Shown here: positions 40,501 to 63,422 of the stretch, piece by piece
How positions within the stretch are numbered: position 1 is the first letter of the stretch
How the letters are laid out: every line of letters begins with the position of its first letter
Assembly: GCF_016405965.1 (NCBI RefSeq)
Contig: NZ_JAEFCD010000007.1
Location: 96,624-160,623 of the forward strand
Reading direction: 5' to 3'
DNA from: Alteromonas sp. IB21
Lineage (GTDB): Bacteria > Pseudomonadota > Gammaproteobacteria > Enterobacterales > Alteromonadaceae
DNA length: 64,000 bases
Notes under the pieces: model-generated
What the model was told of the DNA's origin: nothing
The model's database searches: none
The model's input: the letters and a program-made list of their open reading frames with translations, nothing else
Made by a program: the position numbers and the translations under genes

Positions 40501-42069
40501 CTGCTGCAAGCGCGATAGATCTTCCGTAACTACCTTGCTGAGGTAGAGAGTCTCAAGTGAGTCGAAGTTTTCTAATCCTTCTAAAGAAGATACTTCATCA
40601 AAGCAGCTGAGAAATCTAATCTCATTTGCGAAACGAGTTCGTTCGTTCACTCTATATGATATACATTGTTTCAACGTGGGGTCTGTTATGTTTGCTAGCG
40701 CGTCTTCGATTGAAATTATGCTTGATTTAGTTTCTGAATAGTTAGCCACAACGTGTCTTACAGCGTTAACAGCATGAACAGCATCTGCGCCAAAATTTTC
40801 ATCCTCTCTCGGTAATCCGCAGGGCAATTCTCCACACAAGTTAGACGGATTTGAGAAGAAGGGGACTTCGTATGCATCACGCGTTTCATAGGCCATTATA
40901 GTCGCAAAGCCTATGTTATTTGGGATGGGTATCCTGTAACCAACGCCAGAAGGAAAATCTCCACCTTCTTCGCCTTGTGGTCTAGAATGGCCTAACCCCA
41001 AGTTATGGCCTAGCTCATGTGCAAATGTACTACCGCTGTAATTGATATCTGTTTGGCTATACATAGAGCCATAGCTACTTCTCTTTATGTGTGCCGGCTT
41101 CCAAGCTATCCCAGCGGAGGAATCACCTTCATTTTGAGGGGTTAAAAGTGCAACGGCATCAGCACCTAACTCTATGCGTAAGCGAGCGATATCTTCGAAC
41201 GGGGCTACGCCTGCTGTAATATCATCAAGTCCATCACCGCCATCGGTATAAGGATATTCAACAATTTGGATGCCTTTAATTTGCACTTTAGCCAGAATTC
41301 CCGAGGCTTCAAATGCTTCGTTTGTATAGGCTACAAAATGGTCAATCTTGGCATTTACATCGTCTACTACTTCTTCACAGTTTTGTGAATAAACAATTAA
41401 CATATCAATGGTAACAATATCGCTTCCGTTTTCAGATGCGTGGTATTTAGACGCTTGCTTTGCGTCAAGCGGTTTTAAAGTTTCATCTAAAGGAGCGCTT
41501 TCACCGTCTTTAGGCTGTGTTGCTATGTTTTCGTTTAACTCGTTATAGAATAGTTGTTGTTTGTTTGAAACGTCATCGATATACGGAATTGACTCTATAA
41601 AATCGTGGTCAAAAGAAATGCCAGTGCGCTGGTTTAACTCTTTTTGTTTATAAAAAAGTAGCGCGTCTTCTACGCCTGAAGCCGAATATGCGCCTTTATC
41701 TGTAATCAGCTCCATATACACTCCCTTTTCGCCTACCGTTATCATAGAGCTGACGGGTATTCCGTCTATAAATGAACGAATAGTGATATGCTTAGAGCCA
41801 AGATTGCCCGAGCTAGTTTTGATCACCTTGCCCTTCACTATTGTGTCTGGAAGTTTAATCAATACACTCTCATCAGGAGTCAAAGCTGTAAGAGTAGCCC
41901 TGTCAATTTTGGTTTCACTATAAAGACTTGATATTTCATCTGGGATGCTTTGGGAGCGAAGAGCGTCTGGGCTAGGTAATGCTTGCTCTGTAAAGTCGAA
42001 GGTATGCGTTTTCGCTTCGGCAAAAAGGCTAGCGCTTAATAGCGCTGCTACAACGGCGGTTTTTTTCAT
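37534..42069 (-). CDS. Giant secreted metalloprotease with LRR, Calx-beta and GlyGly-CTERM
   Basis: A 1511-residue exported protein. A signal peptide covers residues 1-19. A propeptide-like region is followed by a reprolysin-like zinc protease domain (about 215-450) with HELGHNLGLGH (His351, Glu352, His355, His361) and the downstream TIMAYE methionine turn. About ten leucine-rich repeats follow (490-850), then a short DYDGDGISNRDE calcium loop (near 860), five Calx-beta domains (about 880-1480), and a C-terminal GGGSTGAWLILILIASITRR, a GlyGly-CTERM signal for rhombosortase processing and surface release. Its neighbour at 48331 is a paralogue that shares the protease, LRR and Calx-beta parts but not this tail. 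It likely degrades proteins outside the cell. No secretion genes lie near. Confidence 0.9.
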   Translation of the reverse strand: MKKTAVVAALLSASLFAEAKTHTFDFTEQALPSPDALRSQSIPDEISSLYSETKIDRATLTALTPDESVLIKLPDTIVKGKVIKTSSGNLGSKHITIRSFIDGIPVSSMITVGEKGVYMELITDKGAYSASGVEDALLFYKQKELNQRTGISFDHDFIESIPYIDDVSNKQQLFYNELNENIATQPKDGESAPLDETLKPLDAKQASKYHASENGSDIVTIDMLIVYSQNCEEVVDDVNAKIDHFVAYTNEAFEASGILAKVQIKGIQIVEYPYTDGGDGLDDITAGVAPFEDIARLRIELGADAVALLTPQNEGDSSAGIAWKPAHIKRSSYGSMYSQTDINYSGSTFAHELGHNLGLGHSRPQGEEGGDFPSGVGYRIPIPNNIGFATIMAYETRDAYEVPFFSNPSNLCGELPCGLPREDENFGADAVHAVNAVRHVVANYSETKSSIISIEDALANITDPTLKQCISYRVNERTRFANEIRFLSCFDEVSSLEGLENFDSLETLYLSKVVTEDLSRLQQLPNLASLSLFGSNASDFSFLERLGSLQRLYIRGSNFDNTQAQALASLVNLQRLWLSSETLTTLPDLSALIQLEDLYISADLQSLDSIANNAKLLSLDIRSGSLTLIPNNANWPLLESLDLRSSNIESLEGIHNFPKLKHLDVTDNELNSLVGLGSLSELTSLYVGQNNLTNIQPVSLLSNLKELNVSFNPIDDVSPIENLSSLEVLNIESIETGNVSMLNNLENVVAFRAGSNGYGSDWSIINNMGELKSLSLLGVDSETLKDIENHKKTLSSLYLGEVVSNDLTPFFKFYRLEYFSLYPRFDVELYCWQVDYLKNIPLFGFYTNSSCSAEDDSSDYDGDGISNRDELSVNTNPTIDDRVSSAVSFDIDSTGNISIYEDRDNYESHYTAIVERLGDSSVESTVSVSVTEEGATRGDDFEVDTDLLVFPPGSSFARLTVTVYDDYKLEGEESFTIKLSEPMNTEILGTSEITIKLLDELDGGDFQDEDGNSGTPSVKWETLYQSANERDGSMDIVVNRPTGLTGPFSVEVTSVPLSENSEGTYELKESLLSFDATDAFLNVTVSVNNDSLETGSKFISLRLENAENTIVDPEYASLTLEIKDDESSDARIGFQNSLFNVTEDVGAVTLILVRSAPYNEDVPFSIIHRGFGTATLDVDAQLPSSSFVFPAGLTSFSIDLTIIDDDIFESLENLELELDGIPSALLSQNDFVSVYIEDNDSEPTGTISFSQSEMEVDESNGSVEVTLVRAGGLEGTRTVTVSPSFGTATENDFSFEAQEISFQPGEETKRVQVSIEDDTEQESSETFYLTLSSEMEAVVSSPDTIAVTILDNDEEVLPTGKLSFEQQSYSVEEDAGTIEVTVLRTEGLIGELKAEVTLEYGSASSSDVSFTPVTLIFSEGESVKTVSVAVVNDSLEESQESFTLSISAIDDNTQIGEIASATVYIQANDAPTNGGDDDTPRSNGESGGGSTGAWLILILIASITRRKKLSR

Positions 42070-48330: not shown

Positions 48331-51300
48331 CTAGTCGATGGTTGGAACATCGACTGATTTCCAGCTTTGATGAGGAGTAAGCTGTTCTTTAAATAACTTC
48401 ATACTGTCGTCTTTCAGCAATTTATCAAAGCTATCTGCCTCTACTTCTTTGTAATTAAGTGAAGATTGCTCCGTCATTTGCAGCAGCGATGACAAAGGCG
48501 CGGCAAGAGGGATATCGCTAGATTCACTTCCAAAATAAAGGCGCGTGTAACTACCATCTGAACTTTGTTTCACAATCCAGCTTCCAGTAGACGGGCGGCG
48601 AATCGCAATATCCGTAATACCATCGCCGTCATAATCAGCAATTACTGGAATGTCATCTGATTGAGAGCCAAAGAAGACTCGCTGAATAACGCTGTCTGAT
48701 GAACGTTTAATAAACCAAAAACCGCTATCAGGTCGACGAATGGCAATGTCAGCTTTTCCGTCGCCGTCATAGTCCCCCACAACAGGGATGTCTGTTGCCA
48801 ATGAGCCAAACCCTATTCTGTCTATCGCGTTGCTAGATGAGAATTTAATGATAAATTGACCTGCGCTTTTACGGCGTACGGCAATATCTGCTTTTCCGTC
48901 TCCGTCGTAGTCCGCCACCACTGGCGTATCTGATACATCCAACCCAAAGGTTTCACGAATAATAGCACCTGTACTGCTGTGTTTAATAAACCACTGACCG
49001 GTTGAGGGGCGGCGAATAGCAATATCATCAATACCGTCACCGTCGTAATCTGCAATAACTGGAATATCTTCATCGCGAGAGCCGAAGAAAATTCGGTTTA
49101 TTTTATCGTCAGAAGTAGTGCGTGAAATGAACTGTTTAACAGCGGTGCGACGAATAGCGATATCGGTTACTCCATCTCCGTCGAAATCCCCAGCTAAGGG
49201 AATGTCGTTTGCCATAGAACCGAAATAAGCGCGCATAATCGTGTTGTCCGAAGAACGTGCCACAATAAACTGACCTATTCCTGGTCTGCGTATAACAATA
49301 TCCGACTTGCCGTCACCGTCGTAGTCGTATGGAGTTAATTTAGGCTTGTCGTTATCGACAATATCAATAACAGAATACGAGGGATTACCCACTGCGCTGT
49401 AATCATCGCTATCTATGCTAATTTCGAACGTTTCGATAAGTTCATCAATGGCATCGTCAACAATTTTAATTTCAACTACTTTACGGGCTTCGTTAGGGGC
49501 AAAACGAATAGGCCTATCAAAGCTCACATAATCTTTTTCGCTTGTTGTCGTGTCACGAAACCAAAGCTTTACCTCACGAGCACCTGTTAGGTCGCCAGTT
49601 CTCACTAACGCGAATTCAAGAACGCTCCCTTCAACCGTAACCAGATTTAGTTCCTCTGTTGTAACTATGCCTGTTTCAAATGCACTTTCATCGTCAATAA
49701 TTGATACTCGATGAGAATTAATACTTCCTAAGAACTGGTTGTTAACATCTAAGCGCACTATAAAGCTCTCTGTACCTTCAATAAGATCATCACGCAAAAT
49801 GCTAACACTTATTGTTTTTCTGTCCTCACCAGGTGCAAATAAAACACTCTCTGAGTAATCGCTGAAATCTTCATTATTGGCGCTATCACTTTCCATTCTA
49901 TAGTTCACAGTAAGCGTGCCAGAAAGGTCACCCTCGCGAACGATATCAACGTAATGAATATTCGAGCCATTGTAAGATACACTTCGAGGCTCATAAGCTG
50001 TGCTGTTTCGGCTCGCAAACGATACTTTACCCGTTTCCTCTCCGGGCGCATCGTTATCATATAAATTGATGCTAGTGCTCCATTTGTCGCCAATCAAATC
50101 ACGTGAGAGCCCTTCTATACTAATTTGCGCATATTCAAAATATGCCTCGTCAAAACTGTCATCAATAACTCTCACATTAATAACTTTCTGCTTTTCATGA
50201 GGTAAAAACGTTACAGACGAAGATGAGAGAACAATATCCTCACCAAAGGTTAGATCCCCAGAGATCTTATTGATTGAAAATTGTCTTGTTTCAGTGTCAT
50301 TACCCTCTCGTTTAAGTACTAACTCAAACGAACCGTCACCTTCATTAACGTCGTGCCAATACTGTTCGAATTCAATTCGTCGCCCTTCGGATTCATCATC
50401 GGCTATCTCGAGGGTTAGTGAGCCAAATGCATCATCAATGACTACGCCTTCAGGGTTCAAAAGGCGTAATGCTAAATATTTTGAGCCACTGTAAGTGGCA
50501 TCGTCTCTAAAGCTAGCTGTTACGGTTTGGAAGTTATCGTTACTATCGAAACTTATGACTTTTTTATCCAGCGTTATGCTGTTTTCACTTTCTGCAGTTA
50601 ATGGAACCGCCTCAACTTCCACGCTGAATGCTTGATTTAAGCCAGCAGGGCGATTTAGCATTAACGTTATTTGTTCTGCCGATTCATCTACAGAGGTGTA
50701 AGATGATTCCCAGCCTATTACTGCATTCTCGCCAGGCTCTATGATGTCGCTTCCGTCAATATTGTCTTTTATTTCAATCGTAAGCGTAGTGTTGGTTCCT
50801 AACTGCGCACCGCTTGCATTAGAAAGTTCTACGTAAAATGATTCTGTGCCTTCTTTTAAATCGTCTGCTTTTACATAAAAATTAAAAGATACGGCGTTAT
50901 CGCCAGGATAAAAGCTCTCATATGCAGAATAAAATGAATAGTCGTAAAAATCAGCCGTGTCGTAAAAATCGGTCAATGTTACCGACGACGAAGACAAAGA
51001 ATTGCCTTTTCTTCTTAGAACTCCAGTATACATAACGCCAGTTGCTTGCTCATAGTATGATAGTGACGATTCTAAAAATTCAATGGTAGCCGGTTGGTTA
51101 TCATTTTCTGTAGGGTTACTTTGCCTATTAAGCTCATCAATGTTGCTAATGCCATCGCCATCATAATCATTACTATCATCAGAGGTATCGCACCCTTCAG
51201 AGCCATAACCTTCTCTGACATAGCTATTATATCTGGGCAAAGTTTCTAAGTAATCTTGCTGCCAGCAATAAAAATCTGGCCCTCTGGAAGCAGCGTATAT

Positions 51301-53664
51301 GGTCAAGTTCTGTAGTCGATAAAACTCAAAGAGTTCACTTAGGTCTGAAGCATTTACTTCGTCTAAGCTTAAATTCTGTATAGAGCCTGATAAGTTTGAA
51401 ATGGCGCTTAAATCTGAAGCGTCAATTTCAGTTAAATTCAGTTCGCGTAAAAAAGAAAGAGAACTGACAAAAGACCAGTCTTGCTCTATGCCGTAGCTAC
51501 CCGCAGTAAGTTCTGTCAAATAGGAGAGTTCGCTCAGTACTTCTATGTTTTCAACCGGGTTATTAGCAATGTTAATTCGCGTTAAATTTGGGAAGTCTCT
51601 AACAGCGCTAATATCTGTAATATCATTTCCACTAACGTTTAGTTCTGTTAACCCTTTCAAAGCGCTAAGCTCGTCAATAGAAGTTAACCCCATCGACTGA
51701 AGCGAAAGCTGCTTGAGGGTTTCTAAGCCATTTACTTGAGAAAGCGACTCAAGCATTACATTTGACAAATATAAAGACTCAAGTAAAGGCCAAGAAAAAG
51801 CGGTAGGAAATGTCGCACTGGCTGAGTCAATCTCTAAATGCTTCAAGTTTCTGTTTTGGGTGATGCCATTTAAGGATTCTATCGGCGCCCTTATGGTTAG
51901 CTCTTCTAATAGCGCAATAGAGGAAAAGTCTGGCAGATTAGTAAGGGCGTTGCTTGAAATTGATAGTGTGGTCAAACTAGACAAGTTAGATAGCAATATT
52001 GCACTTTCGTTATCCAATGCATCTGAACGAAGCGATAGCGTTTTAAGGCTTTGTAAACTTTCTAGAGGGCCAAGGTTAGATGTTAGAATTTCATTCAGCG
52101 TAAGGCTGTTCAGATTTCTCAATGCAGAAAGGGCTGAAATATCATTAACATGCGCTTGACTAAGGTGTACGCTTTGTAGCCCAGTAAATTGCTCTAAACC
52201 TGTTAAGCTATTTAATTCATTATAGCAGTAAATACGTTTAACCTGATGCGCAAACACAACCGAACTGTCTGTCGCATCAGCGAGACAATTAGCAAGGTTG
52301 GGATCTGAAACAGCGTTCAGTGCGTTTTCGATAGCAATACTTTGACCATCGGTTTTGCCGTAATTTGCAACGATGTGCCTTACCGCGTTTACTGCATAAG
52401 TTGCATCTGCGCCATAATTTTCGTCATGTTTAGAAACGCCACATGGAAATTCTCCACACAACTTTGTTGGGTTAGAAAATAGCGGGGCTCTATTGTAAGC
52501 ACCTTGAGTGCCGTACGCCATTATAGTGTTGAACCCAGCGTTATTAGTTACAGGTATACGAAAGCCTACACCGTAATCGAAGTCAGCCCCTTTATCGCCC
52601 TGCTGGCGAGAGTGGCCCAACCCTAAATTATGCCCTAGTTCGTGAACGAAAGTAGAGGCCCCAGCGTCAACATCAGTTTGGCTATACATCCTGTCAGCTG
52701 AAGACGAGTTTAAATGCCCCAGCAAATAAGCTATACCAGATGAATAATCATTTTCTGACTGGGGTATTAACAGCGCTACTGCGTCGGCGCCGTTTTCATT
52801 TTTGAGCTGTTCAACGTTCTCAAATGGCGGCGTTCCTGAGCTAATTGCATTTAGCGCTACACTACCAATATTGTACGGATAATCTACCTCTAGCTTTCCT
52901 TTAAAACGCACTTGAACGTAAATGTCGGAATCTTCGAATACTTGGTTAGCATACGCGATAAGGTGATCTATGCGGGTGTCTATATCATTTATCACATCAC
53001 GTACGTTACTCGAGTATACAAAAAATATTTCAATAACCGCGATATCGTTGTTCTCGGATACAGACGTGTTAGCGTTAACTTCAGCTCGCTGTTTATCTAT
53101 GTTACCTACAAACTGCTTTGCATTGACACCTAAAGGAGCGACAGTACGTTCTGAAAGGCTAAGCACAGGCTCAGGTGCTATTGCATCATTGAACGACTTC
53201 ACCCGCATGCTATTAAGCACGTCGGGTTTATGCATTAGCACGCTATCTTTATCGCCCATAGCGGTGTAGTAGCCTTGTTCAGTGCTAATATCCATAAATA
53301 CATCGGTGTCTCCAATCGTAATTAAGGAAGAGACCGGTATGCCGTTGATTGTCGAACGTACGGTAATATGTTTAGCGCCATTAATACCCGTAGTTATTTT
53401 TGAAACCCGAGCGTTTGTTACATTTGAGGGAAAATTAAAAGAAACAGTTTCGCCAACAGAAACTGAGGCGAGTGCCTCGCTATTAATCTGGGCAATTGAA
53501 AAATGCGACTTGTCGTTTTGCTGCATCAACACACTATTCGCGCTTTTTACATCTGCGCGTTGAACATTATTTGATACCTCAACGAACACGGGGGTTTTGG
53601 CATAAATAAACGTAGGAATGGCGAACAAACAAAGCAGTGACAGAGCCGAGGATTTAATGCTCAT
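48331..53664 (-). CDS. Giant secreted metalloprotease with LRR, Calx-beta and FG-GAP repeats
   Basis: A 1777-residue protein counted from the ATG at 53664, with AAGGA seven bases upstream; the longer frame adds eight residues. A signal peptide ends near FIYAKTP. A propeptide region is followed by a reprolysin-like zinc protease with HELGHNLGLGH (His341, Glu342, His345, His351) and TIMAYG, a set of leucine-rich repeats (about 490-820), a YDGDGISNIDE calcium loop (near 833), five Calx-beta domains (about 850-1435) and six FG-GAP units (about 1445-1725). It is a paralogue of the 37534 gene with the GlyGly-CTERM tail replaced by the FG-GAP block. It probably acts on proteins or glycoproteins outside the cell. 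Confidence 0.9.
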   Translation of the reverse strand: MSIKSSALSLLCLFAIPTFIYAKTPVFVEVSNNVQRADVKSANSVLMQQNDKSHFSIAQINSEALASVSVGETVSFNFPSNVTNARVSKITTGINGAKHITVRSTINGIPVSSLITIGDTDVFMDISTEQGYYTAMGDKDSVLMHKPDVLNSMRVKSFNDAIAPEPVLSLSERTVAPLGVNAKQFVGNIDKQRAEVNANTSVSENNDIAVIEIFFVYSSNVRDVINDIDTRIDHLIAYANQVFEDSDIYVQVRFKGKLEVDYPYNIGSVALNAISSGTPPFENVEQLKNENGADAVALLIPQSENDYSSGIAYLLGHLNSSSADRMYSQTDVDAGASTFVHELGHNLGLGHSRQQGDKGADFDYGVGFRIPVTNNAGFNTIMAYGTQGAYNRAPLFSNPTKLCGEFPCGVSKHDENYGADATYAVNAVRHIVANYGKTDGQSIAIENALNAVSDPNLANCLADATDSSVVFAHQVKRIYCYNELNSLTGLEQFTGLQSVHLSQAHVNDISALSALRNLNSLTLNEILTSNLGPLESLQSLKTLSLRSDALDNESAILLSNLSSLTTLSISSNALTNLPDFSSIALLEELTIRAPIESLNGITQNRNLKHLEIDSASATFPTAFSWPLLESLYLSNVMLESLSQVNGLETLKQLSLQSMGLTSIDELSALKGLTELNVSGNDITDISAVRDFPNLTRINIANNPVENIEVLSELSYLTELTAGSYGIEQDWSFVSSLSFLRELNLTEIDASDLSAISNLSGSIQNLSLDEVNASDLSELFEFYRLQNLTIYAASRGPDFYCWQQDYLETLPRYNSYVREGYGSEGCDTSDDSNDYDGDGISNIDELNRQSNPTENDNQPATIEFLESSLSYYEQATGVMYTGVLRRKGNSLSSSSVTLTDFYDTADFYDYSFYSAYESFYPGDNAVSFNFYVKADDLKEGTESFYVELSNASGAQLGTNTTLTIEIKDNIDGSDIIEPGENAVIGWESSYTSVDESAEQITLMLNRPAGLNQAFSVEVEAVPLTAESENSITLDKKVISFDSNDNFQTVTASFRDDATYSGSKYLALRLLNPEGVVIDDAFGSLTLEIADDESEGRRIEFEQYWHDVNEGDGSFELVLKREGNDTETRQFSINKISGDLTFGEDIVLSSSSVTFLPHEKQKVINVRVIDDSFDEAYFEYAQISIEGLSRDLIGDKWSTSINLYDNDAPGEETGKVSFASRNSTAYEPRSVSYNGSNIHYVDIVREGDLSGTLTVNYRMESDSANNEDFSDYSESVLFAPGEDRKTISVSILRDDLIEGTESFIVRLDVNNQFLGSINSHRVSIIDDESAFETGIVTTEELNLVTVEGSVLEFALVRTGDLTGAREVKLWFRDTTTSEKDYVSFDRPIRFAPNEARKVVEIKIVDDAIDELIETFEISIDSDDYSAVGNPSYSVIDIVDNDKPKLTPYDYDGDGKSDIVIRRPGIGQFIVARSSDNTIMRAYFGSMANDIPLAGDFDGDGVTDIAIRRTAVKQFISRTTSDDKINRIFFGSRDEDIPVIADYDGDGIDDIAIRRPSTGQWFIKHSSTGAIIRETFGLDVSDTPVVADYDGDGKADIAVRRKSAGQFIIKFSSSNAIDRIGFGSLATDIPVVGDYDGDGKADIAIRRPDSGFWFIKRSSDSVIQRVFFGSQSDDIPVIADYDGDGITDIAIRRPSTGSWIVKQSSDGSYTRLYFGSESSDIPLAAPLSSLLQMTEQSSLNYKEVEADSFDKLLKDDSMKLFKEQLTPHQSWKSVDVPTID
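48490..49332 (-). repeat. FG-GAP repeat block, six units, in the 48331 gene
   Basis: Six tandem in-frame units of about 138 bp that encode DYDGDG calcium loops. They correspond unit by unit to the block at 45408-46246, so the array was copied as a block between the two genes. Confidence 0.85.
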
Positions 53665-53975
53665 GAGGTAGTCCTTTACAAAAAACACACATATTCGCTT
53701 AGGGTAGCAGTGAAACCTAGGCCTTTGAAAGGCTATAAGCGAATATGGGTGGGTATGGGATTTAATACTAAGGTATAATTTAAGCTCTCTAGATGTATAA
53801 CAAAAACTATGTTGAACGGCACTCCGCTTTTCAAAGCATAAAAATTATGCGTTCAATTTCAAATTGCAGCGAAGCACTGTAATTAGCATAGTAAAGCAGG
53901 TACACTTTTGGTTTAATATAGCGCTAAAATTTAGCACACGGAATGGTTCAAATAACAACATGGTAGCCTTGTAAT

Positions 53976-54758
53976 ATGCGGTATTCAGCGAGCGGTAGCC
54001 GTTTTTGGCATCTTGTTGCCGTCAAAATAAGAATGAACCTAAAGTCAGAAGCAGCACAAAGCCAGCTCAACTACCTGTGGTGGGTTTTAGAACCTGCGTT
54101 GTTCATTGCCATGTACTATGTAATTTTCGGTATATTTTTAAATTCACGTACCGATGACTTCGTAGCATTTCTTATTGTAGGCAAAATTCCATTTCTTTGG
54201 TTCTCTCGAACTGTTAACAATGCCAGTAATGCACTTGTTGCCGGTGGCGGTTTAATGAATCAAATCAACATTCCTAAAATTTTCTTTCCAGCCGTGGTTA
54301 TTGGGCAAGACCTGGTGAAAACCGTCTTTGTTTTCTTATTGATGTTAGCGATTCTGGCTGGCATGGGGTACGAACCCACCTTAAATTGGTTTGCAATTAT
54401 TCCTATCGCGTTAATGCAGTTGCTATTTGTAAGCAGTTTGGCTGTGCTGTTTTCGGCCCTAGTGCCTTTTCTTCCCGATATGAAGTTCATTGTAGGCACC
54501 TTTGTCACGTTAATGATGTTTGCATCGGGAATATTTTACGACCCCATGCAGTTTTTAAAGCCTGAACATAAAGAGTTGTTTTTTCTTAACCCGTTAGCAA
54601 GCGCTATTTCAATGTACAGAAAGGTGTTAATGGAAAATACGCTTCCAGACTGGGCATATTTGGGAGCTATGGCCGGCGCGTGTTTAGTTGCCCTTTTCGC
54701 CGCAATATCACTGCTGCGTTTGTTCGACTCTCGCTACCCTAGATTGGTGTTGCAATAA
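53976..54758 (+). CDS. wzm: Polysaccharide ABC exporter, permease (Wzm/KpsM type)
   Basis: A 260-residue inner membrane protein with six predicted helices. The N-terminus RMNLKSEAAQSQLNYLWWVL and the following LEPALFIAMYYVIFGIFL are typical of ABC-2 permeases for capsule or O-antigen export. The C-terminal MYRKVLMENTLPDW region is also conserved. It forms the pore for an undecaprenyl- or lipid-linked glycan with the ATPase whose ATG overlaps its stop by one base. It starts the surface polysaccharide operon. Confidence 0.93.
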   Translation: MRYSASGSRFWHLVAVKIRMNLKSEAAQSQLNYLWWVLEPALFIAMYYVIFGIFLNSRTDDFVAFLIVGKIPFLWFSRTVNNASNALVAGGGLMNQINIPKIFFPAVVIGQDLVKTVFVFLLMLAILAGMGYEPTLNWFAIIPIALMQLLFVSSLAVLFSALVPFLPDMKFIVGTFVTLMMFASGIFYDPMQFLKPEHKELFFLNPLASAISMYRKVLMENTLPDWAYLGAMAGACLVALFAAISLLRLFDSRYPRLVLQ

Positions 54759-55483
54759 TGAGCCAGCCGTCTGTTAGTTTAAGCTTAAAAGATGTGTGCC
54801 TAACGTTTAGAACCCGTAAAGGTTTTTTTCGTTACCATCAACATTACGCACTAAAAAACGTGAGTTTTCAGGTTTTTAAAGGCGAAACACTAGGTGTTAT
54901 AGGTAGAAACGGTTGCGGCAAGTCAACATTATTAAAAGTGTTGGCAGGTATTTTGAAAGCCGATAGTGGCGAGCTTGTCTCTAATGTGAATTACATTAGC
55001 TTGCAGTCGCTAGCAACAGGTTTCGATAGGCAGCTTTCCGGGCGTGACAATGCCATTCTTTCAGCCATGCTTTTAGGCCACAGTAAAGAAGCGGCACTTA
55101 ATGCATTACCCAGTATTTTAGAATTTTCCGAATTAGGTGATGCATTTGAACAGCCGGTTAAAAGTTACAGCTCTGGTATGCGTTCTCGCCTAGGGTTTTC
55201 AGTAGCAATGCTTATGGAAGCCGATGTATTACTGGTTGACGAGACATTAGGCGTTGGCGACACACGGTTTAAGCGAAAAGCCGAAAAAGCCATTTTAAGC
55301 CGAATAAACTCCGATCAAACTGTGGTGTTTGTTTCACACTCTGCGGGGCAGGTGAAACGGCTTTGCAGTCGCGTAGTTTGGCTTGAGCATGGCGAAGTAA
55401 AAAAAGTGGGGCCAGCAGATATACTCGTTGATGAATACGAAGAGTTTATACAGCAAGAGCGAACTCGGCGTAATAGGAAATAA
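54758..55483 (+). CDS. wzt: Polysaccharide ABC exporter, ATPase (Wzt/KpsT type)
   Basis: A 241-residue ATPase. Walker A is GRNGCGKST (49-57), the signature is YSSGMRSRLGFS, Walker B is ADVLLVDE and the switch His lies in VVFVSHSAGQ. It lacks the C-terminal carbohydrate-binding domain of O-antigen Wzt proteins and so is closer to KpsT, which exports without reading a chain-end tag. The overlap TAATG with the permease suggests coupled translation. The next gene begins eight bp after it. Confidence 0.93.
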   Translation: MSQPSVSLSLKDVCLTFRTRKGFFRYHQHYALKNVSFQVFKGETLGVIGRNGCGKSTLLKVLAGILKADSGELVSNVNYISLQSLATGFDRQLSGRDNAILSAMLLGHSKEAALNALPSILEFSELGDAFEQPVKSYSSGMRSRLGFSVAMLMEADVLLVDETLGVGDTRFKRKAEKAILSRINSDQTVVFVSHSAGQVKRLCSRVVWLEHGEVKKVGPADILVDEYEEFIQQERTRRNRK

Positions 55484-55491
55484 CAGAATTT

Positions 55492-56853
55492 ATGATTATT
55501 TATCCAAGTGAAAGTTTTGCTAAAGGGCAAGAGCTTTCGAAGAAGAAGCTTAATACGTATTTTGAATTAACAGAAAGCAAAGTTCCCAGTGTTAAAGACA
55601 GTTTGTTTTCTGAAGAAGGCGTAACGGCTTATATTGATGATGAGAACAACGCTGAAAAATATGAATATGTAATCTTACCGTTAGTTGATTATGTGTGTTT
55701 TGAAGTTTTTAATGGCGAAAGTAACAGCATAGAAGTTAAAAAACTCATAACTCAGTGGCGGGAGTACGTGCAGGCAGCACGCTCGCACAATTCCTTATAT
55801 GCTGACGTTTGTAGCTGGAAAAACGTTAGTTTTGAATTAAACGATGAACAACAAAAAACAAAAAATAAAATAGAAGCCTTGGTGCTTACCGACGAACTTT
55901 GTGAACTTGATGATATAGTGCGGGTGCTGTGTGGGCTTAGCGTTAATAAAGCACCAAAAACGTTATCTCCTTTCGAGTTGGCTAATACTATAGCCTCAAA
56001 TTATATCGATATTGCTAAGAACCGCTCAGCACAGCAAAAATTAGCACACGTTGAAGTTGAAGCTTCGATGCTTCAGGAAAAAAATGACAAGTTGAGTAGC
56101 GATTTAAGTGCATCGCAGTCGGTAATTGCGAAGAAAAACGAACAGCTGCAAGAAGCGCAACAACATAATGATTCGTTAAAAGAAAATACGTTAAAACTTA
56201 CAACAAGTTTTGAGGCTAGGCTTGAAAAAGCAGGCCAACAAGCCGCGCAGCTGAATGAAGAGATTAATGCGTTAAACCAAAACAATTTAAAGAAAGTGGC
56301 AGAGCTTGAGGCGCTAACTAGCGAAAAAGCGCACTTAAGTGAACGTTTAGAGGAAGAGAAAAACAAAAACAGCAAGTTAGCTGAAGCCTTAGAGAACGCG
56401 GAACAGCAAACCTCCAACTTAAAGCTGGAAATTGAGCTTTGCCAGCTGCAAATTGCTCAGCTTCAAGAAGAGCTTGAAGCTGTATTTAATGACAAAGTAA
56501 AAGGCGAAAAAGCGTTTGAAGAAAAATTAAAGGATACTGAGCATCAGCTTAAGCTAGCATTAGAGAAACAGTATGCTATTCAGCAAGAAAGTGTGACAGC
56601 AGTAACAAACAATACTGATGAACTGCATAACGCATTAGCAGAAAACGAACTTATGCAGTTACAAATTTTGCAGCTGCAAGAAGAGCTTGAGTTTTACTTT
56701 GAGAAAGCGTCTTCAACGCAAACCACAGTTGAGCCAATAGTTTTACAAGAAGAAATATTGACTGATGACGTTGCAAAAGCGGCAACACAAAAACATAATA
56801 CGCTAAGCTTAATTGGAAGGCTGATGAATGCATCAGGGAGAGGTGACAACTAA
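55492..56853 (+). CDS. Long coiled-coil protein of the polysaccharide locus, unknown function
   Basis: A 453-residue protein. Residues 1-180 form a globular domain I do not recognise (YEYVILPLVDYVCFEVFNGE, LVLTDELCELDDIVRVLCG). Residues about 190-410 are a long coiled coil rich in Glu, Gln, Lys and Leu heptads (LQEKNDKLSSDL onward). The tail ends in LIGRLMNASGRGDN. There is no signal peptide or membrane helix, so it is cytoplasmic or peripheral. It starts eight bp after the exporter ATPase and its stop overlaps the next coiled-coil gene by one base. Its place suggests a scaffold or ruler for the glycan-assembly and export complex; this is inference. Confidence 0.6.
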   Translation: MIIYPSESFAKGQELSKKKLNTYFELTESKVPSVKDSLFSEEGVTAYIDDENNAEKYEYVILPLVDYVCFEVFNGESNSIEVKKLITQWREYVQAARSHNSLYADVCSWKNVSFELNDEQQKTKNKIEALVLTDELCELDDIVRVLCGLSVNKAPKTLSPFELANTIASNYIDIAKNRSAQQKLAHVEVEASMLQEKNDKLSSDLSASQSVIAKKNEQLQEAQQHNDSLKENTLKLTTSFEARLEKAGQQAAQLNEEINALNQNNLKKVAELEALTSEKAHLSERLEEEKNKNSKLAEALENAEQQTSNLKLEIELCQLQIAQLQEELEAVFNDKVKGEKAFEEKLKDTEHQLKLALEKQYAIQQESVTAVTNNTDELHNALAENELMQLQILQLQEELEFYFEKASSTQTTVEPIVLQEEILTDDVAKAATQKHNTLSLIGRLMNASGRGDN

Positions 56854-57926
56854 TGCAAATTTTTAAAATGCTGTTAAACAGCTTGCCATATCAATTTGAA
56901 AATTTTGTATTAATAGGTGACTTTCCTAAATCAACTATAAATGCAGTTAAAAGCGTAAATGCTAAAAATAAAGTGCTGTGCAGTTTAAGCGAAAATAGTT
57001 CTGTAACGGATATACAACAGCAGCCTTTTCCCGTTCTAGATAATGTCGAAACTCAATCAACGTTCAATGAAGCGAATTTAAAAGGTTTTAGCAGCGTAAA
57101 GCAGCCCGCTAGCATCAAACAGTTGTTGCCAGGCATATTATTCGAGTCAGCACAGCTTGAATCCCAGCCGATGACGTCGTTTTTGTCTAATTTATCTGTT
57201 GCTGACAACACAGCTAATATGGCTGTGCTGAATCTTAATGGTGCAGAATTACAGTATTTGGTGGAAGACGACAGTCTGCTGAATACATTTAATTGTATCT
57301 TGGTGTCTTGCAGCAGCAATAATATATTTGATGGTGCAGAGGATAGTTACAAAGGCTTGCTATCGCATTTGAAAGAAAACAATATCGCCTACTCTATATT
57401 CCCAGCGGAAGTGCACCCTTTTAGTTTCTTGCTTATTCACCGCCCGCCTGCATGGAATAGTGACAGTAACGAGCTAAAACAGGCTATTGCAGATAAGCAG
57501 CAAGCTGAAGAAAGCCTTACTCAGCATAAAGAACTACTAGTTAATAGTAAGCAGCAAAACAGCGAGAAGCAAAAAGAAATAGCAGAAATGTTTCAAAAAC
57601 TACAAGCAAATGAACAGCAATTAAGCGAGCTGAAGGCGCAACAACAGAAGCTAAATGAAGAAAAAGCTTGGCTAGAAAATGAATGGAACAATGCCAAATC
57701 AAAGGTAGAAGAACAAAGCCAAGCATCGAAAATAACGAATAAGCTGAACCTGAAGCTTCAGGTAGACCTTGACGATCTTCGAAAAAAATATTCAGAAAAA
57801 GAGCAAAACGAGCGAGAACTTAGCGAGTTAATTGACGAGTTATATGTAAAGCTTAAACAGGCATCAGAGTTCTATTACGAGCTAGAAAAAAAATACCCAG
57901 AGTTGACGGACGAGCAGCGTGACTAA
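56853..57926 (+). CDS. Coiled-coil protein with degenerate FkbM-methyltransferase-like N-terminus
   Basis: A 357-residue protein. Residues 1-195 resemble an FkbM-type SAM methyltransferase fold: MAVLNLNGAELQYLVEDDSL parallels the FkbM segment that normally reads lkiDvEGaE, but the acidic residues that contact SAM are replaced here (Asn and Asn before Gly). It also has the following LLSHLKENNIAYSIF strand. Residues about 205-345 are a coiled coil. This layout, a methyltransferase-like domain plus coiled coil beside an ABC exporter, recalls WbdD of O9a O antigen. The start overlaps the previous gene (TAATG) and the end overlaps the sulfotransferase gene by eight bases. Confidence 0.55.
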   Translation: MQIFKMLLNSLPYQFENFVLIGDFPKSTINAVKSVNAKNKVLCSLSENSSVTDIQQQPFPVLDNVETQSTFNEANLKGFSSVKQPASIKQLLPGILFESAQLESQPMTSFLSNLSVADNTANMAVLNLNGAELQYLVEDDSLLNTFNCILVSCSSNNIFDGAEDSYKGLLSHLKENNIAYSIFPAEVHPFSFLLIHRPPAWNSDSNELKQAIADKQQAEESLTQHKELLVNSKQQNSEKQKEIAEMFQKLQANEQQLSELKAQQQKLNEEKAWLENEWNNAKSKVEEQSQASKITNKLNLKLQVDLDDLRKKYSEKEQNERELSELIDELYVKLKQASEFYYELEKKYPELTDEQRD

Positions 57927-58866
57927 ACAAGTAAAAAACTTAAAGCACCTCCAGTCAGAGATTGATAGTGCACTCTCGCTAATCAAAAATAAAGGTAGCG
58001 TTCTGAATGGCGACGGTATTTCGAAGAAGGGATTAATTACAGGTACTGAAAGCTTATTGGAGCGTTGCAGAAGTATTGTAATAGCCAAACAAAAAGCTAA
58101 ACCTAGTATGCGTACTATTCATCATTTCGCATGTTCTGGGGGAACATTGATATCAAAATGCATTAGCAGTATGCCAAATGTGTTTTTATTGAGCGAGATG
58201 CATCCATACACTCAAATGTTTCCACCCAGCGGTAAACCTCTTTATTTACCGACAGATATTGTTTCACAAATAAAGTATGCAAAACTCCCTCTTAACAAAG
58301 AACTCTCTTTAAAGTTATTTACTAATAATATTGTCACTGTAAGTAAGCACTTGAGAAAAATCGGTGGTACTTTGATTATAAGGGAACATACTCACTCTGA
58401 ATATTGCTTGAGCGATATGGTTCACAAAACTAAAACGCTAATTAGTTGCTTATCAAGTGAGTTTAATATTGAGTCAATAGTAACGATTAGAGATCCGATA
58501 GATTCTTATTCTTCGTTGGTTAAAAATAACTGGGTCACATTTAATCCACAAAGCTTCGATGAGTATTGTAAACGTTATTTATGCTTTTTGGAGGACTATG
58601 CCGATTGCTCGGTTTTTAAATATGAAGACTTTGTCGAAGAGCCAATTGAGCAAATTAAAAATATATGTAAATCTTTAAAAGTTGAGTTTTGTGAAGATTT
58701 TCTAGATATTTTTCCTTTGATAAAGCTCTCAGGAGATAGTGGACGAACTAGTGACTCAATATCTTTTCGAAAAAACAACGTCCCTTCATACATAAAAAAT
58801 GAAGCTTTGAAGTCTTCTCACTATCACCTATTTTGTGATCGTTTTAATTATCGAAATATATTGTGA
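57919..58866 (+). CDS. Sulfotransferase-like protein of the polysaccharide locus
   Basis: A 315-residue protein. After a helical N-terminus (1-70) comes HHFACSGGTLISKCISSMPN, which matches the 5'-phosphosulfate-binding loop of PAPS sulfotransferases, and later VTIRDPIDSYSSLVKNNW, which matches the 3'-phosphate-binding RDP-S motif. DYADCSVFKYEDFVEEP is also a usual segment. It probably sulfates a sugar of the exported polysaccharide from PAPS. It overlaps the genes on both sides. The base composition is visibly more AT-rich than the ribosomal region, as is typical of exchanged surface-glycan genes. Confidence 0.75.
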   Translation: MTKQVKNLKHLQSEIDSALSLIKNKGSVLNGDGISKKGLITGTESLLERCRSIVIAKQKAKPSMRTIHHFACSGGTLISKCISSMPNVFLLSEMHPYTQMFPPSGKPLYLPTDIVSQIKYAKLPLNKELSLKLFTNNIVTVSKHLRKIGGTLIIREHTHSEYCLSDMVHKTKTLISCLSSEFNIESIVTIRDPIDSYSSLVKNNWVTFNPQSFDEYCKRYLCFLEDYADCSVFKYEDFVEEPIEQIKNICKSLKVEFCEDFLDIFPLIKLSGDSGRTSDSISFRKNNVPSYIKNEALKSSHYHLFCDRFNYRNIL

Positions 58867-60740
58867 AGGATCTAATAGTGACTGCAGGAATAAATAGTAA
58901 TAGTATCACAGGAAAGATAGTCAGCGACGTGATGCGATGTGATGAGTTCTATATTTTAAGAAATAGGGATAAAATCAAGAGTATAGAAAAAAAATGGTTG
59001 AAAGATCTTTACAATATCCAACTAGATATAGATGTTAATGTAGAGTCAGATGTACTATTTTTTAGAAGTTTGGTGAGAAGTGATTACCATAAACTTTTTC
59101 ACGCAATAATATCTAGTTGTAACGATATCAGTTACTCAATAGTTGAAGACTACGAAAAGACACCTTCATTAAATATAGAGTCTGTTAATTTTCTGAGCAA
59201 GCATAAAGGTTTGCTCGCTTTATTTGATATTTATGAAATAGAGTTGAGAATTGCTCTTTTTATTCGTTTTATATACTACTTTTTCATCGCGAATGAGCTT
59301 TACAAGAGGAAATTCAATACCATCGTTCTCTTCTCTGATATGCAGCCGGTTGAATGCCTAGCATCACATATTGGAAATCTAGTTGGCAAGGAAACAGTAA
59401 CGTTACAACACGGTCTTTATATTGAGTATGAAGGAATCGAAACCGTTAATGTTGTCAATTACGAAGTACAACCATCAAAAACTTTCTTAGCTTGGGGGAA
59501 AAATACAAAAAATTTAATAGAGAAATACCATAGTGACACTAGAGTTGTGATTTGTGGAAAGCCAGACATAAATTACCTCAAAGCCTCTGAGGAGACTAAT
59601 AGAAAGATATTAGTTGTGCTCGACCAAGAAGTTTTTAGAGAGAATAATATAGCTCTTTTACATATCCTTCTTGCATTTTGTAACCGAAATGGATATTCAT
59701 TTGAAGTTAGGTTTCACCCTCACAATAATAAGGCTTCCTATAGAAAACTTTTTTCCATAACAGAGCAGAGTGTTCAATACGAACATTATGATTTTTGTGT
59801 AGGTATTTCTTCCTCACTGATCTACGAGTTGAAATCACAAGGTTTAAAAGTATTCCAATTTTCTTGTAGTACTCCTGCAGTAGATTTTCCAAAAGAGTTT
59901 TCTTTTTCTTCTGATATAGAGTTGACCAAGAAAATTCAGAGTAATTTAAATGCTAACTTCTCGCCGATTTCCTATGTCGGGGAAGAAAGCACTAATAAAT
60001 ATAGAGAGTTTTTTTTCAATCTGAAGGAAAAAAGTAAAGAGTCAACCCCATTTTTCAGTATTATTATACCAACTTATAATAGTGTGGGGGTCCTGTACAA
60101 AGCTCTAAATTCAATAGTTCGGCAAACGTGCGGAGACTATGAAGTAATAATATCTGATGGAGCTTCAGATGATTATACTTTCGAGTATGTTTCGAAAGCA
60201 TTCGCTGACTATTCAAATATTAAAGTTTATTCAAGCCCTGACTCGGGTATTTACGACGGAATGAATAAGGCCTTTTCTAAAGTCAAGGGGCAATGGCTCA
60301 TATTTCTTGGGTCAGATGACGAACTTTTTGATGAAAAAGTGCTTGAGACAGTAAAGAACCGTATAATGGAAGAGAATAACCCACAATGTAAATTATTTTA
60401 TGGAAACGTAGTTGTATCTGGAGATGTTAAGTGGGCAAAAAATGGCCATCTTTATGATGGAGAGTTTTCGGTTGAAAAGATAAAGCAGAAAAACATTTGT
60501 CACCAAGCTATCTTTTACAATGTTTCTACAAAACGTGGGCTTATGCCATATAACACTAAGTACAAACTGTGCTCTGACTGGGATATGAATCTGAAGTTTT
60601 TTTCAAAGTACGAGACTACCTACTTAGATACTATTGTGGCAATCTTCAACGCGGGTGGCGCATCAACTGAGGGCGGAGACCCTGAATTCGGTAAAGATTT
60701 TAAGAGTAATATTAGTAAATATTTTAGAGGTCAGGATTAG
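58863..60740 (+). CDS. Two-domain glycosyltransferase (capsule-synthase-like plus GT2)
   Basis: A 625-residue protein. Residues about 130-370 resemble the capsule polysaccharide / CDP-glycerol glycerophosphotransferase fold: TVTLQHGLYIEYEG, FEVRFHPHNNK and ISSSLIYELKSQGLKVFQFS are its QHG, HP and SS-E motifs. Residues about 395-610 are a GT2 glycosyltransferase with FFSIIIPTYNSVGVLYKALN, VIISDGASDD and the DxD-like FLGSDDELF. The annotated GTG start overlaps the previous stop (GTGA) but has no ribosome site; an in-frame GTG at 58878 has AAGGAT six bases upstream and may be used. It likely adds two linkages of the polysaccharide. Confidence 0.75.
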   Translation: MKDLIVTAGINSNSITGKIVSDVMRCDEFYILRNRDKIKSIEKKWLKDLYNIQLDIDVNVESDVLFFRSLVRSDYHKLFHAIISSCNDISYSIVEDYEKTPSLNIESVNFLSKHKGLLALFDIYEIELRIALFIRFIYYFFIANELYKRKFNTIVLFSDMQPVECLASHIGNLVGKETVTLQHGLYIEYEGIETVNVVNYEVQPSKTFLAWGKNTKNLIEKYHSDTRVVICGKPDINYLKASEETNRKILVVLDQEVFRENNIALLHILLAFCNRNGYSFEVRFHPHNNKASYRKLFSITEQSVQYEHYDFCVGISSSLIYELKSQGLKVFQFSCSTPAVDFPKEFSFSSDIELTKKIQSNLNANFSPISYVGEESTNKYREFFFNLKEKSKESTPFFSIIIPTYNSVGVLYKALNSIVRQTCGDYEVIISDGASDDYTFEYVSKAFADYSNIKVYSSPDSGIYDGMNKAFSKVKGQWLIFLGSDDELFDEKVLETVKNRIMEENNPQCKLFYGNVVVSGDVKWAKNGHLYDGEFSVEKIKQKNICHQAIFYNVSTKRGLMPYNTKYKLCSDWDMNLKFFSKYETTYLDTIVAIFNAGGASTEGGDPEFGKDFKSNISKYFRGQD

Positions 60741-60742
60741 TA

Positions 60743-61819
60743 ATGACAGCAAGAGCAATCGCTTTTTATTTACCTCAATTTCATCCTATTAAAGAAAATG
60801 ATGTTGCACACGGTAAAGGGTTTACAGAATGGACAAATGTAACTAAATCGATTCCCCTTTTTCCTGGACACGTTCAGCCGAAACTACCAGCTGATTTGGG
60901 TTTTTATGACTTAAGGTTATCAGAGGTAAGAGAGCAACAAGCGAACCTAGCTAAAACTTATGGTATCGAAGGTTTTTGTTATTGGCATTATTGGTTGGGA
61001 AACGGAAGACGTCTATTAGAACGGCCTTTCAACGAAGTTTTAGAGTCAGGTAAGCCAGATTTCCCTTTTTGTCTTGGGTGGGCTAATCATGATTGGTCAG
61101 GAAAAGGTTGGATGGGCGGTGCTCAAGGTGAAGATATTATTCAAAAATATCCTGGTAAAAGGGATGCAGAAGAACACTTCCTCTTCTTACTAAAAGCGTT
61201 TAAAGACAAGCGATACATAAGAAGAAATGATAAACCTGTTTTCGTCATATATAGACCTGCAGAAATTCCTGATTGTAAATCTTATCTACAATTTTGGAGA
61301 ACGCTTGCAGAGCAAAATGGATTGCCAGGGTTATACATAATAGGCGATGCTGTGCCTGGCGAGCCTGAAGAGTTAGGTTTAGATGGTTCCCTTTATTCTG
61401 GGCAGCGTCATTTACCAAGTAATATTTGGGAACCTTCTTCAAATTGGGAAAGACTTCATTCCAAATCGTTAAAGAAGGTAGAGTACTCCAAGGTGTTGCG
61501 ACATCTCGTTCCGAAAGGAAAAATAAAGGATAATTTGTATCCGGTGATAATACCAAATTGGGATACCTCTCCCAGACTTGGCGATGAAGCAATGATTTTT
61601 TATAACAATAATCCAGCTTTTTTCAAAATACATGTTTCTCAGGTTCTAGATTTGATTGAAAGCCGAAAAGTAAATGAAAATCTTGTATTCATACGTGCTT
61701 GGAATGAGTGGGCTGAGGGAAATTATTTGGAGCCTGACTTAGAGTATGGATTGGGTTACCTTGAGGTTTTAAAAAATTGCCTCGATGAGTTCAAAAGTCG
61801 AAGGAATCATCATGAGTAA
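60743..61819 (+). CDS. WbsX-family glycosyltransferase (GH99-like fold)
   Basis: A 358-residue protein with the family pattern IAFYLPQFHPIKENDVAHGK followed by GFTEWTNVTKSIPLFPGHVQ, YGIEGFCYWHYWLGNGRRLL, PFCLGWANHDWSGKGWMG and RAWNEWAEGNYLEPDLEYG. WbsX proteins occur in O-antigen and capsule clusters and are called glycosyltransferases; the fold is that of GH99 hydrolases. It begins two bp after the previous stop and overlaps the next start by eight bp. Confidence 0.85.
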   Translation: MTARAIAFYLPQFHPIKENDVAHGKGFTEWTNVTKSIPLFPGHVQPKLPADLGFYDLRLSEVREQQANLAKTYGIEGFCYWHYWLGNGRRLLERPFNEVLESGKPDFPFCLGWANHDWSGKGWMGGAQGEDIIQKYPGKRDAEEHFLFLLKAFKDKRYIRRNDKPVFVIYRPAEIPDCKSYLQFWRTLAEQNGLPGLYIIGDAVPGEPEELGLDGSLYSGQRHLPSNIWEPSSNWERLHSKSLKKVEYSKVLRHLVPKGKIKDNLYPVIIPNWDTSPRLGDEAMIFYNNNPAFFKIHVSQVLDLIESRKVNENLVFIRAWNEWAEGNYLEPDLEYGLGYLEVLKNCLDEFKSRRNHHE

Positions 61820-63422
61820 AAATGGAATAAAAGTTCTAGACTGCACCATGCGGGATGGTGGTTATTACAATAATTGGGATTTCCCTAAAGCAGTCGTTGA
61901 AAGTTATGTAAGTGCAATGTCGTCGGCCGGTATTGACATCATTGAAATAGGATTAAGATCTTTGAAGAACACTTCTTTCAAAGGTGCTTACGCCTATTGT
62001 ACAGATGACTTTCTATCGACTTTAGCTGTACCTGAACCCATTAAATTAGGTGTAATGATAAATGGGGCAGAAATCGTAGGTTTAGATGAACAGGAGTCCG
62101 TCCTGAAGAAGCTTTTTCCAAACCATGCAGATGACTCTCCTGTTGATCTTGTCCGTATAGCCTGTCATGTGCACGAATTTAATGAAGCTTTACCTGCATG
62201 CGCTTGGTTGAAAGAGCGCGGATTTTTAGTTGGTTTCAATCTAATGCAAGTTGCAGAGAGAGAAAAGGAAGAGGTTGAAGCACTTGCATTGTCAGCATCG
62301 CGCTATGATATTGACGCACTGTATTTTGCAGATAGTATGGGGAGTATGACTCCCCAGAAAACAGCTGAGATTATAAGTTGGTTCAGAACTTATTGGAAAG
62401 GAGAAATGGGAGTTCATACCCATGACAATATGGGATTAGCACTTTCAAATACGCTTACTGCTATCGAAAACGGTATTACTTGGATTGATTCTACAGTAAC
62501 CGGAATGGGCAGGGGACCTGGTAATGCGCGAACGGAAGAGGTCGCTATCGAAATATCAGATCTTCGCAAGGCTACAGTGAATTTAGTTCCCCTGATGGAA
62601 TTGATAAGAACATACTTCCAGCCGCTCAAAAATGAGTGTGGCTGGGGGACGAATCCTTATTATTATCTATCGGGTAAATATGGTATTCATCCAACGTACA
62701 TTCAGGAAATGTTAAGTGACAAACGGTTTAGTGAAGAAGATATACTTGCCGCTATAGAGCACTTGAGGGTTAAAGGTGGTAAGAAGTTTAGTGTTAATTC
62801 ATTAAATGCCACCAGAGATTTCTATCATTCCGAAGCTAAAGGCTATTGGTTTCCTGAAACTATTATAAATGGCAGACCAGTGTTGATTATTGGGGCAGGT
62901 TCAAGTGTCGAAGCTCATCGTAATGCTCTTGAATTGTTTATTCAAAAAAATAAGCCAGTGGTTATTGCATTGAATACTCAATCAACTATTTCTGAATCCA
63001 TGATTGATCTAAGAGTCGCAAGCCACCCTGTTCGTTTGTTAGCCGATTGCGATATTCATTCTAAACTACCTCAACCGCTAGTCACTCCTTTATCGCAATT
63101 ACCTAGCGATATTGTTGATTCCATCGGAGATAAGGACGTTTTCGATTTTGGTATAAAAATACAAGCAAATTCATTTGAACTAGGAAGGACTTCTGCTGTC
63201 GTTCCTAACTCTCTGGTGATAAGTTATGCGTTAGCGCTCGCTGCAAGTGGTAAGGCTACAAGAATATACTTGGCAGGTTTTGATGGGTTTGGTGCTGGTG
63301 ACAACAGAACTCACGAAATGCAAAGAGTTTTCAGTCTATTTAATTCTTCTGTAAGTATAGATGTTACATCTATTACAAATACAGAATACGATATACCAAG
63401 TGAATCTGTTTATGGGTTGTAA
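61812..63422 (+). CDS. DRE-TIM aldolase fused to an MptE-like domain
   Basis: A 536-residue protein counted from the ATG at 61812, with AAGGAA upstream; the longer frame adds nine residues. Residues 1-290 form a DRE-TIM metallolyase barrel: VLDCTMRDGGYYNNWDF (Arg14, Asp15) and GVHTHDNMG (His202, His204) match the catalytic Arg/Asp and metal histidines of 4-hydroxy-2-oxovalerate aldolase/HMG-lyase relatives. Residues about 350-530 start PVLIIGAGSSVEAHRNALEL and resemble the MptE-like/DUF115 Rossmann domain found in sugar-linked proteins. Position before a KdsB-like gene suggests it makes a keto-acid sugar from pyruvate, but the substrate is unknown. Confidence 0.75.
   Translation: MSKNGIKVLDCTMRDGGYYNNWDFPKAVVESYVSAMSSAGIDIIEIGLRSLKNTSFKGAYAYCTDDFLSTLAVPEPIKLGVMINGAEIVGLDEQESVLKKLFPNHADDSPVDLVRIACHVHEFNEALPACAWLKERGFLVGFNLMQVAEREKEEVEALALSASRYDIDALYFADSMGSMTPQKTAEIISWFRTYWKGEMGVHTHDNMGLALSNTLTAIENGITWIDSTVTGMGRGPGNARTEEVAIEISDLRKATVNLVPLMELIRTYFQPLKNECGWGTNPYYYLSGKYGIHPTYIQEMLSDKRFSEEDILAAIEHLRVKGGKKFSVNSLNATRDFYHSEAKGYWFPETIINGRPVLIIGAGSSVEAHRNALELFIQKNKPVVIALNTQSTISESMIDLRVASHPVRLLADCDIHSKLPQPLVTPLSQLPSDIVDSIGDKDVFDFGIKIQANSFELGRTSAVVPNSLVISYALALAASGKATRIYLAGFDGFGAGDNRTHEMQRVFSLFNSSVSIDVTSITNTEYDIPSESVYGL

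Follow-up and report, generated by a model that had tools for sequence, protein, structure and literature searches.

A putative coiled-coil scaffold with a proposed exchangeable enzyme-docking tail, encoded beside a polysaccharide exporter in Alteromonas and on plasmids of Alphaproteobacteria

Two adjacent genes that follow a polysaccharide exporter in Alteromonas sp. IB21 probably encode a cytoplasmic scaffold in which the C-terminal tail of the second protein would be a swappable docking site for an enzyme that modifies the polysaccharide. The two proteins, termed A and B here, were examined in a window of 64,000 nucleotides (the whole stretch of DNA that was analyzed) and, together with the gene that follows them, termed ST, appear from sequence comparisons to constitute a conserved three-gene set in Gamma- and Alphaproteobacteria. 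The original prediction had offered a chain-length ruler or an assembly scaffold as the role of A and B; the latter option is now favored by the ST cassette and by the apparent covariation of tail and enzyme. Three features escaped that earlier reading: a motif present twice in A, a conserved tail on B, and the ST gene that follows. In the mechanism proposed here, A and B would form a single coiled-coil scaffold in the cytoplasm for a modified surface polysaccharide, and the approximately 60 C-terminal residues of B would contact and recruit the enzyme encoded next. In the window this enzyme would be a sulfotransferase acting ahead of export on the chain, either during its growth or once it is complete; other tails would go with adaptor-bearing enzymes, and some species appear to have fused an extra domain to B. 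The tail may bind a helix at the N-terminus of ST or, elsewhere, a helical adaptor joined to a sulfotransferase-like or methyltransferase domain. A more far-reaching version, in which the tail is a code such that each type fits one partner and bacteria swap tail and enzyme to change sugar chemistry, is put forward tentatively and falls somewhat short of an even chance.

Both open reading frames were confirmed, A at 55492-56853 and B at 56853-57926, in a forward-strand cluster with the order Wzm, Wzt, A, B, ST, GT2 glycosyltransferase, WbsX glycosyltransferase, and HMGL-like protein. The exporter comprises a Wzm-type ABC-2 permease (53976-54758, +; Pfam ABC2_membrane, 1.8e-8) and a Wzt-type ATPase of 241 aa that lacks a carbohydrate-binding domain (54758-55483, +; ABC_tran, 1.5e-20). 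Downstream of ST are a glycosyltransferase with a C-terminal GT2 domain (58863-60740, +; Glycos_transf_2, 6.2e-23), a WbsX-type glycosyltransferase (60743-61819, +; Glyco_tran_WbsX, 1.4e-124), and an HMGL-like aldolase-type protein (61785-63422, +; HMGL-like, 3.8e-28), and about 2 kb of the contig remain beyond the end of the window. The stop codon of A and the start codon of B have one base in common (TAATG), and the 3' end of B overlaps ST by 8 bases, a pattern as in coupled genes.

At the start of this island, a flagellin gene (36088-37443) lies after rplQ (34769-35170), and locus L022 is arranged alike; the island behind rplQ may belong to the replacement islands known from Alteromonas. 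Three large related proteins are encoded between flagellin and Wzm (37534-42069, 45251-48040, and 48331-53688), the last of which contains repeated DYDGDGK units. Relatives of these proteins occur near the cassette in L021, L023, L024, L133, L134, L143, and L149, and both of those scanned against Pfam (in L023 and L133) contain FG-GAP repeats.

The prediction that two coiled-coil proteins follow the exporter was borne out by a custom heptad score, a crude measure for which seven globular proteins of the window served as controls: 153 residues of A and 31 of B reached the coil threshold, against 0 in each of the seven controls. The count observed in the coil part of A was reached by none of 200 shuffles, while 4 of 200 reached that of B, and the coil of B is therefore the weaker of the two on this score. 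Protein A (55492-56853, +) consists of a head (residues ~1-180) and a coiled coil (~178-410) that carries two copies of the motif LQIxQLQEELExxF, which occurs in up to seven copies in homologs. Copy 1 (residues 311-340; 56422-56511, +) matched the motif HMM at 2.1e-9 when window rows were excluded and 1.7e-13 when they were included, and copy 2 (residues 383-411; 56638-56724, +) at 3.7e-10 and 7.1e-14, respectively. Since the head of the window protein barely matches those of 24 other A proteins (profile comparison, 15.9%, E = 0.0016, 38 columns), it is placed in the family by motif and gene position. The motif was considered as a universal mark of A proteins and was rejected as such: it was undetected in A of L022, L073, and L075, and in plasmid A proteins it reached E = 0.1 at best or had no match. 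In a class-wide sample it was present in 3 of 368 other genomes, two of them with the second tail type described below.

The predicted structure of the A head is poor (pLDDT 63) and had no PDB match at E<=0.001; the best Foldseek match was a cyclodipeptide synthase (E = 0.076), with sulfotransferases at E = 0.48 and 1.0. Indications of a sulfotransferase identity of the A head are mixed. The A head of L070 exceeds the PF00685 cut-off (27.5 versus 22 bits), yet the A-head profile compared with ST gave 2.3-2.6% and the window model finds no fold at the threshold given. Among eight other homologous A proteins scanned with Pfam, seven had no match and L077 had a coil match only. Tandem units resembling WYLxxYPDVAxxGxxPLxHYxxxGxxEGR were observed in A-type proteins of L025, L022, L029, L158, L163, and L164; they are terminal in most, and in L158 they come after the LQLHQVQEELEHYF motif.

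Protein B (56853-57926, +) is interpreted from profile, motif, and fold comparisons as a dead FkbM-type head (residues 1-201; 56853-57455, +) followed by a short coil and a conserved tail. Pfam gave no match to window B and no enzyme domain in window A or B, and the window head alone compared with the FkbM profile at 0.1%. The window head belongs to its own family, however, at 98.8% when the family profile was built without it, and that family profile matched 17 true FkbM domains at 97% (E = 6e-11, 164 columns), so that the suspected derivation from FkbM holds at the family level although the single head does not reveal it. An AlphaFold model of the B head has a class-I SAM methyltransferase fold, as anticipated. 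The proposed change of SAM-contact acids was also recovered: the D, E, and G of the KIDxEG signature are present in 17 of 17 FkbM controls, while the E is found in 0 of 22 B proteins, and the acid of the first motif, kept in 15 of the 17 controls, is lost in all 22. In window B the acid after the second strand is lost as well. The changed KIDxEG motif is presumably part of the active site, and the second-strand acid presumably holds the ribose of SAM. On these comparisons and on the modeled fold, the B head is judged to be a degenerate FkbM-type methyltransferase without the catalytic signature, and it probably serves binding or dimerization.

The ST gene (57919-58866, +) encodes a sulfotransferase-like protein of 315 aa with two PAPS-type motifs, HHFACSGGTLISK and RDPIDSYSS. 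Its match to Sulfotransfer_3 (1.6e-4; 22.5 bits) lies below the cut-off of 27 bits, and its match to PF00685 is also below cut-off; the homolog from L021 exceeds the Sulfotransfer_3 cut-off at 27.2 bits. In 25 of 25 homologs the H, H, A, C, G, G, L, and C of motif 1 and the R, P, D, and S of motif 2 are identical, and these are presumably the 5'-phosphosulfate loop and 3'-phosphate (PAPS) motifs. Activity as a sulfotransferase is inferred from these motifs. Sequence comparison with solved structures gave no credible match to ST, and no match to ST was found in phage records.

Loci were gathered through A and B, plus the window, and their neighbors were then checked. Of the 26 B proteins that end in the window type of tail, termed tail I, 25 (in 25 genomes) have ST at a distance of -41 to +8 bases, the exception being L081. 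Tail I of the window (residues 293-353; 57729-57911, +) is the proposed ST dock, matched by a tail HMM built without the window at 2.3e-28 and covarying with the next gene. The same association was seen from the side of ST, which is present in 19 of 329 Alteromonadaceae genomes and adjoins B in 18 of the 19. In the remaining genome (G031, L188), neither A nor B was found within 20 kb and the ST open reading frame is shorter (269 aa); as called (L188:9887-10696), it does not include the start region of the others, and there are stop codons in the matched frame. Matches to the B tail were found in 31 of 395 genomes, from which ten of one genus (frames of 116-118 aa) and G130 (L081) were set aside; these are the tail-I-like matches without ST, those of the ten genomes being at E of about 1e-4 with one of them (L167) inspected. 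Named relatives with the B tail are Alteromonas (A. salexigens, A. portus, and A. antoniana) and one Alteromonadaceae MAG, and in a class-wide sample tail I was recovered in the genome of the window only (1 of 369).

In 8 of the 25 genomes A and B are separated by a further gene, A of L076 is not visible because the contig ends at B, and in L074 a single 619-aa open reading frame after Wzm-Wzt has the A motif and the B tail with no head detected. In several loci a gene between A and B encodes a conserved protein of 380-430 aa with a start like IDPGLxExGGHHAA (L026:10867-12021, L030:9691-10872, L028:7520-8752, L162:7016-8254, and L160:8416-9648); Pfam gave only DUF5010 for the L028 protein, at 0.023 and below cut-off.

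Beyond the Gammaproteobacteria, ST was found on 8 of 72,556 plasmid records, from Salipiger, Leisingera, Sulfitobacter, Thalassovita, Gemmobacter, and Ensifer. The preceding gene is B-like in all eight (head HMM, 3e-24 to 1.5e-39), and an A-like gene precedes B on five (1.5e-6 to 2.9e-13) and is missing on three. In the seven annotated records (L191 has no annotation), all seven B proteins and all five A proteins are labeled 'hypothetical protein'. The tails of these B proteins are recognizable across classes: against a profile built from 24 tails of gammaproteobacterial proteins, the last 170 residues of the eight matched at 94.4% (E = 9e-8), and hand-cut tails of seven of the eight (L196, a near copy of L190, was left out) matched at 95.6% (E of about 1e-8). 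As controls, mid-coil pieces of seven plasmid B proteins and coil pieces of A proteins gave 0.2 and 0.5%.

A second tail type, tail II (...AEAQIELIKDxLLRE...), was recognized in six proteins: L157, L158, and L162, from which its model was built, L032 and L197, which were found with that model, and L163, which was assigned by eye. The reading of both types as a single element was rejected, with a profile comparison of 0.2%. None of the six tail-II proteins has ST beside it (0 of 6 at E<=1e-20), and the L158 protein has the A motif and no detected B head. The gene after tail II encodes a protein with a helical N-terminal part, the adaptor, in which TPR families are matched below their cut-offs (L197, L032, and inside L163). 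An adaptor HMM built from L158, L162, and L197 matched 5 of 913 open reading frames, namely those three, L032 (1.5e-18), and L163 (1.2e-22), all tied to tail II. Four of the five directly follow a tail-II protein, and in L163 head, coil, and adaptor are in one 881-aa chain whose end may be a methyltransferase (Methyltransf_24 at 0.013, under the cut-off); L157 has tail II without an adaptor-type enzyme next door. Among the open reading frames searched, the pairing of adaptor and tail II spans three families and two classes. What the adaptor carries varies. L032 has an FkbM methyltransferase with intact motifs like those of L118 (65.3 bits versus a cut-off of 22.7). The enzymes of L158, L162, and L197 are putatively sulfotransferase-like: a motif was recognized by eye in L162, which L158 resembles (neither has a Pfam match), and L197 is assigned by matches to Sulfotransfer_3 (0.0018, below cut-off) and to the ST model (8.8e-5). 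The B proteins of L029, L160, and L164 end in another common domain, which in L160 matches Methyltransf_24 below cut-off (0.0044) and in L029 and L164 is unmatched.

An apparent natural exchange of tail and third gene is preserved in two Leisingera plasmids, of Leisingera sp. NJS204 and Leisingera caerulea S216, that carry the same operon. The S216 stretch from 0.7 to 12.7 kb matches NJS204 at 78-82% before (78% through A and B) and 85% after one long gap, which extends from 91 bases before the end of the S216 B gene to just past its third gene; in NJS204 the alignment picks up again inside ST, 39 bases from its end. Inside the gap, NJS204 encodes ST and the matching tail, a tail that is recognized as tail I only within the plasmid profile and not alone, and S216 encodes tail II (7.7e-10) and an adaptor protein. 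Beyond 12.7 kb the plasmids diverge again. Comparable cases exist among more distant loci. The B heads of L026 and L030 compare with that of L032 at 31-36% and the A proteins at 37-39%, as against 33% and 39% between L026 and L030, while over the last 60 residues the L026/L030 pair scores 92 and either scores 35-41 against L032 (best of 200 shuffles, 50). Similarly, the heads of L022 and L025 resemble that of L029 about as much as one another, and the tails do not. Judged by these alignments, tail and enzyme are swapped as a unit between clusters.

Such co-exchange of neighboring genes could also result from recombination without any contact between the products. In this alternative the operon is simply co-inherited and one recombination tract spans the tail and the next gene, in keeping with the exchange of surface-structure islands as blocks by homologous recombination (PMC4033161). 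We regard this as distinctly unlikely: a tail that goes with ST is recognizable between classes where other coil pieces do not align, the adaptor occurs only with tail II among the open reading frames searched across three families and two classes, and the Leisingera break falls inside B. A further possibility is that the B head has kept activity with a changed chemistry, or senses SAM or a sugar by binding it, with ST being incidental. It draws on several B proteins (L068, L078, and L079) in which both a first loop rich in glycine and the second-strand acid are retained, and on the L072 protein, which exceeds the FkbM cut-off (23.5 versus 22.7 bits). Loss of the signature glutamate and the first-motif acid in all 22 B proteins compared, and of the second-strand acid in the window, makes it improbable.

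The remaining alternative is a ruler and terminator of the WbdD kind, in which the coils set the distance between enzyme and polymerase, so that capping at a defined length would precede ABC export. Among ABC-dependent O antigens, terminator-ruler systems are characterized by coiled-coil proteins (PMC11231755). The length of complete B proteins varies between 357 and 1037 aa, and two Leisingera B coils (L190 and L196; proteins of 451 and 486 aa) differ in a repetitive stretch by 35 residues, or five heptads. The exporter, which the original prediction had tied to these proteins, gives a divided answer: a Wzt/KpsT-type ATPase lies within ~20 kb on the same contig in 14 of 25 cassette genomes, which agrees with such a tie and with a ruler, while among the 11 genomes without a linked exporter at the threshold used (E<=1e-30), six have a match on another contig and five have none. 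Moreover, no catalytic domain was found on window A or B, and the window ATPase, as predicted, has no tag-reading (carbohydrate-binding) domain among the 22 families listed for it, which include ABC_tran and P-loop-type matches; its best NCBIfam relatives are TagH and galactan Wzt, all below cut-offs. Such a domain is described for the terminated examples of PMC11231755. A ruler is thus considered unlikely, and the ST partner and exchangeable tail point to enzyme docking and not to the exporter.

With respect to clusters without a linked exporter, all 15 Alteromonas genomes tested, whether or not they have the cassette, encode an ABC2 permease elsewhere, within 2 kb of a Poly_export gene of 606-633 aa, which would allow export in trans. 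An exporter-free role in flagellin glycosylation (clusters G024, G027, G035, G003, and G008), an idea prompted by the proximity of a flagellin gene to the cluster both in the window and in L022, was dropped as the main reading given this permease. It should be noted that genes for ABC_membrane, HlyD, and outer-membrane efflux proteins were observed at the far cluster end in L136 (14848-19094; by Pfam) and L152 (3187-7391; by similar size and order), both without linked Wzm/Wzt.

To the best of our knowledge, little is known of the recruitment of modifying enzymes to a growing surface polysaccharide outside some O antigens of E. coli and Klebsiella. A transferable tail-enzyme pair, if true, would explain how a cluster can alter its decoration and otherwise remain the same, and could offer a handle to direct an enzyme to a glycan assembly line. 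Literature searches returned no paper joining FkbM methyltransferase, coiled-coil, and polysaccharide, and nothing beyond PMC13171606 for sulfotransferase and coiled-coil with capsule or exopolysaccharide.

The nearest known system is WbdD of E. coli O9a and K. pneumoniae O3, which likewise combines a methyltransferase-fold head with a coil, ABC export, and an enzyme-recruiting C-terminal region (PMC11231755). The system described here differs in having a dead head of FkbM type without any kinase in evidence, a modifying enzyme that is encoded separately and resembles a sulfotransferase, an additional coil protein, and an ATPase that lacks the tag-reading domain. Of the features of WbdD-type terminator/rulers, a long coiled coil in an ABC-exported glycan cluster is found here, whereas an intact terminating enzyme on the coil protein and a chain-end-reading ATPase domain are not; with these two defining features absent, the system resembles WbdD in its working principle. 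ORF6 of K. pneumoniae O7 joins a methyltransferase, a kinase, and a coiled coil, with C-terminal glycosyltransferases in some orthologs (PMC11231755), and so shares the plan of head, coil, and variable C-terminal cargo; its methyltransferase-kinase is bifunctional, as opposed to the dead B head, and cargo here is usually a separate protein. At the level of families, the B head is homologous to FkbM (PF05050) by family profile with the signature lost in 22 of 22, and ST shows both PAPS-type motifs of the PF13469 and PF00685 sulfotransferases with the window protein under both cut-offs. What would be new among these systems is that a coiled-coil scaffold for assembling a polysaccharide has its cargo on a separate protein that can be exchanged.
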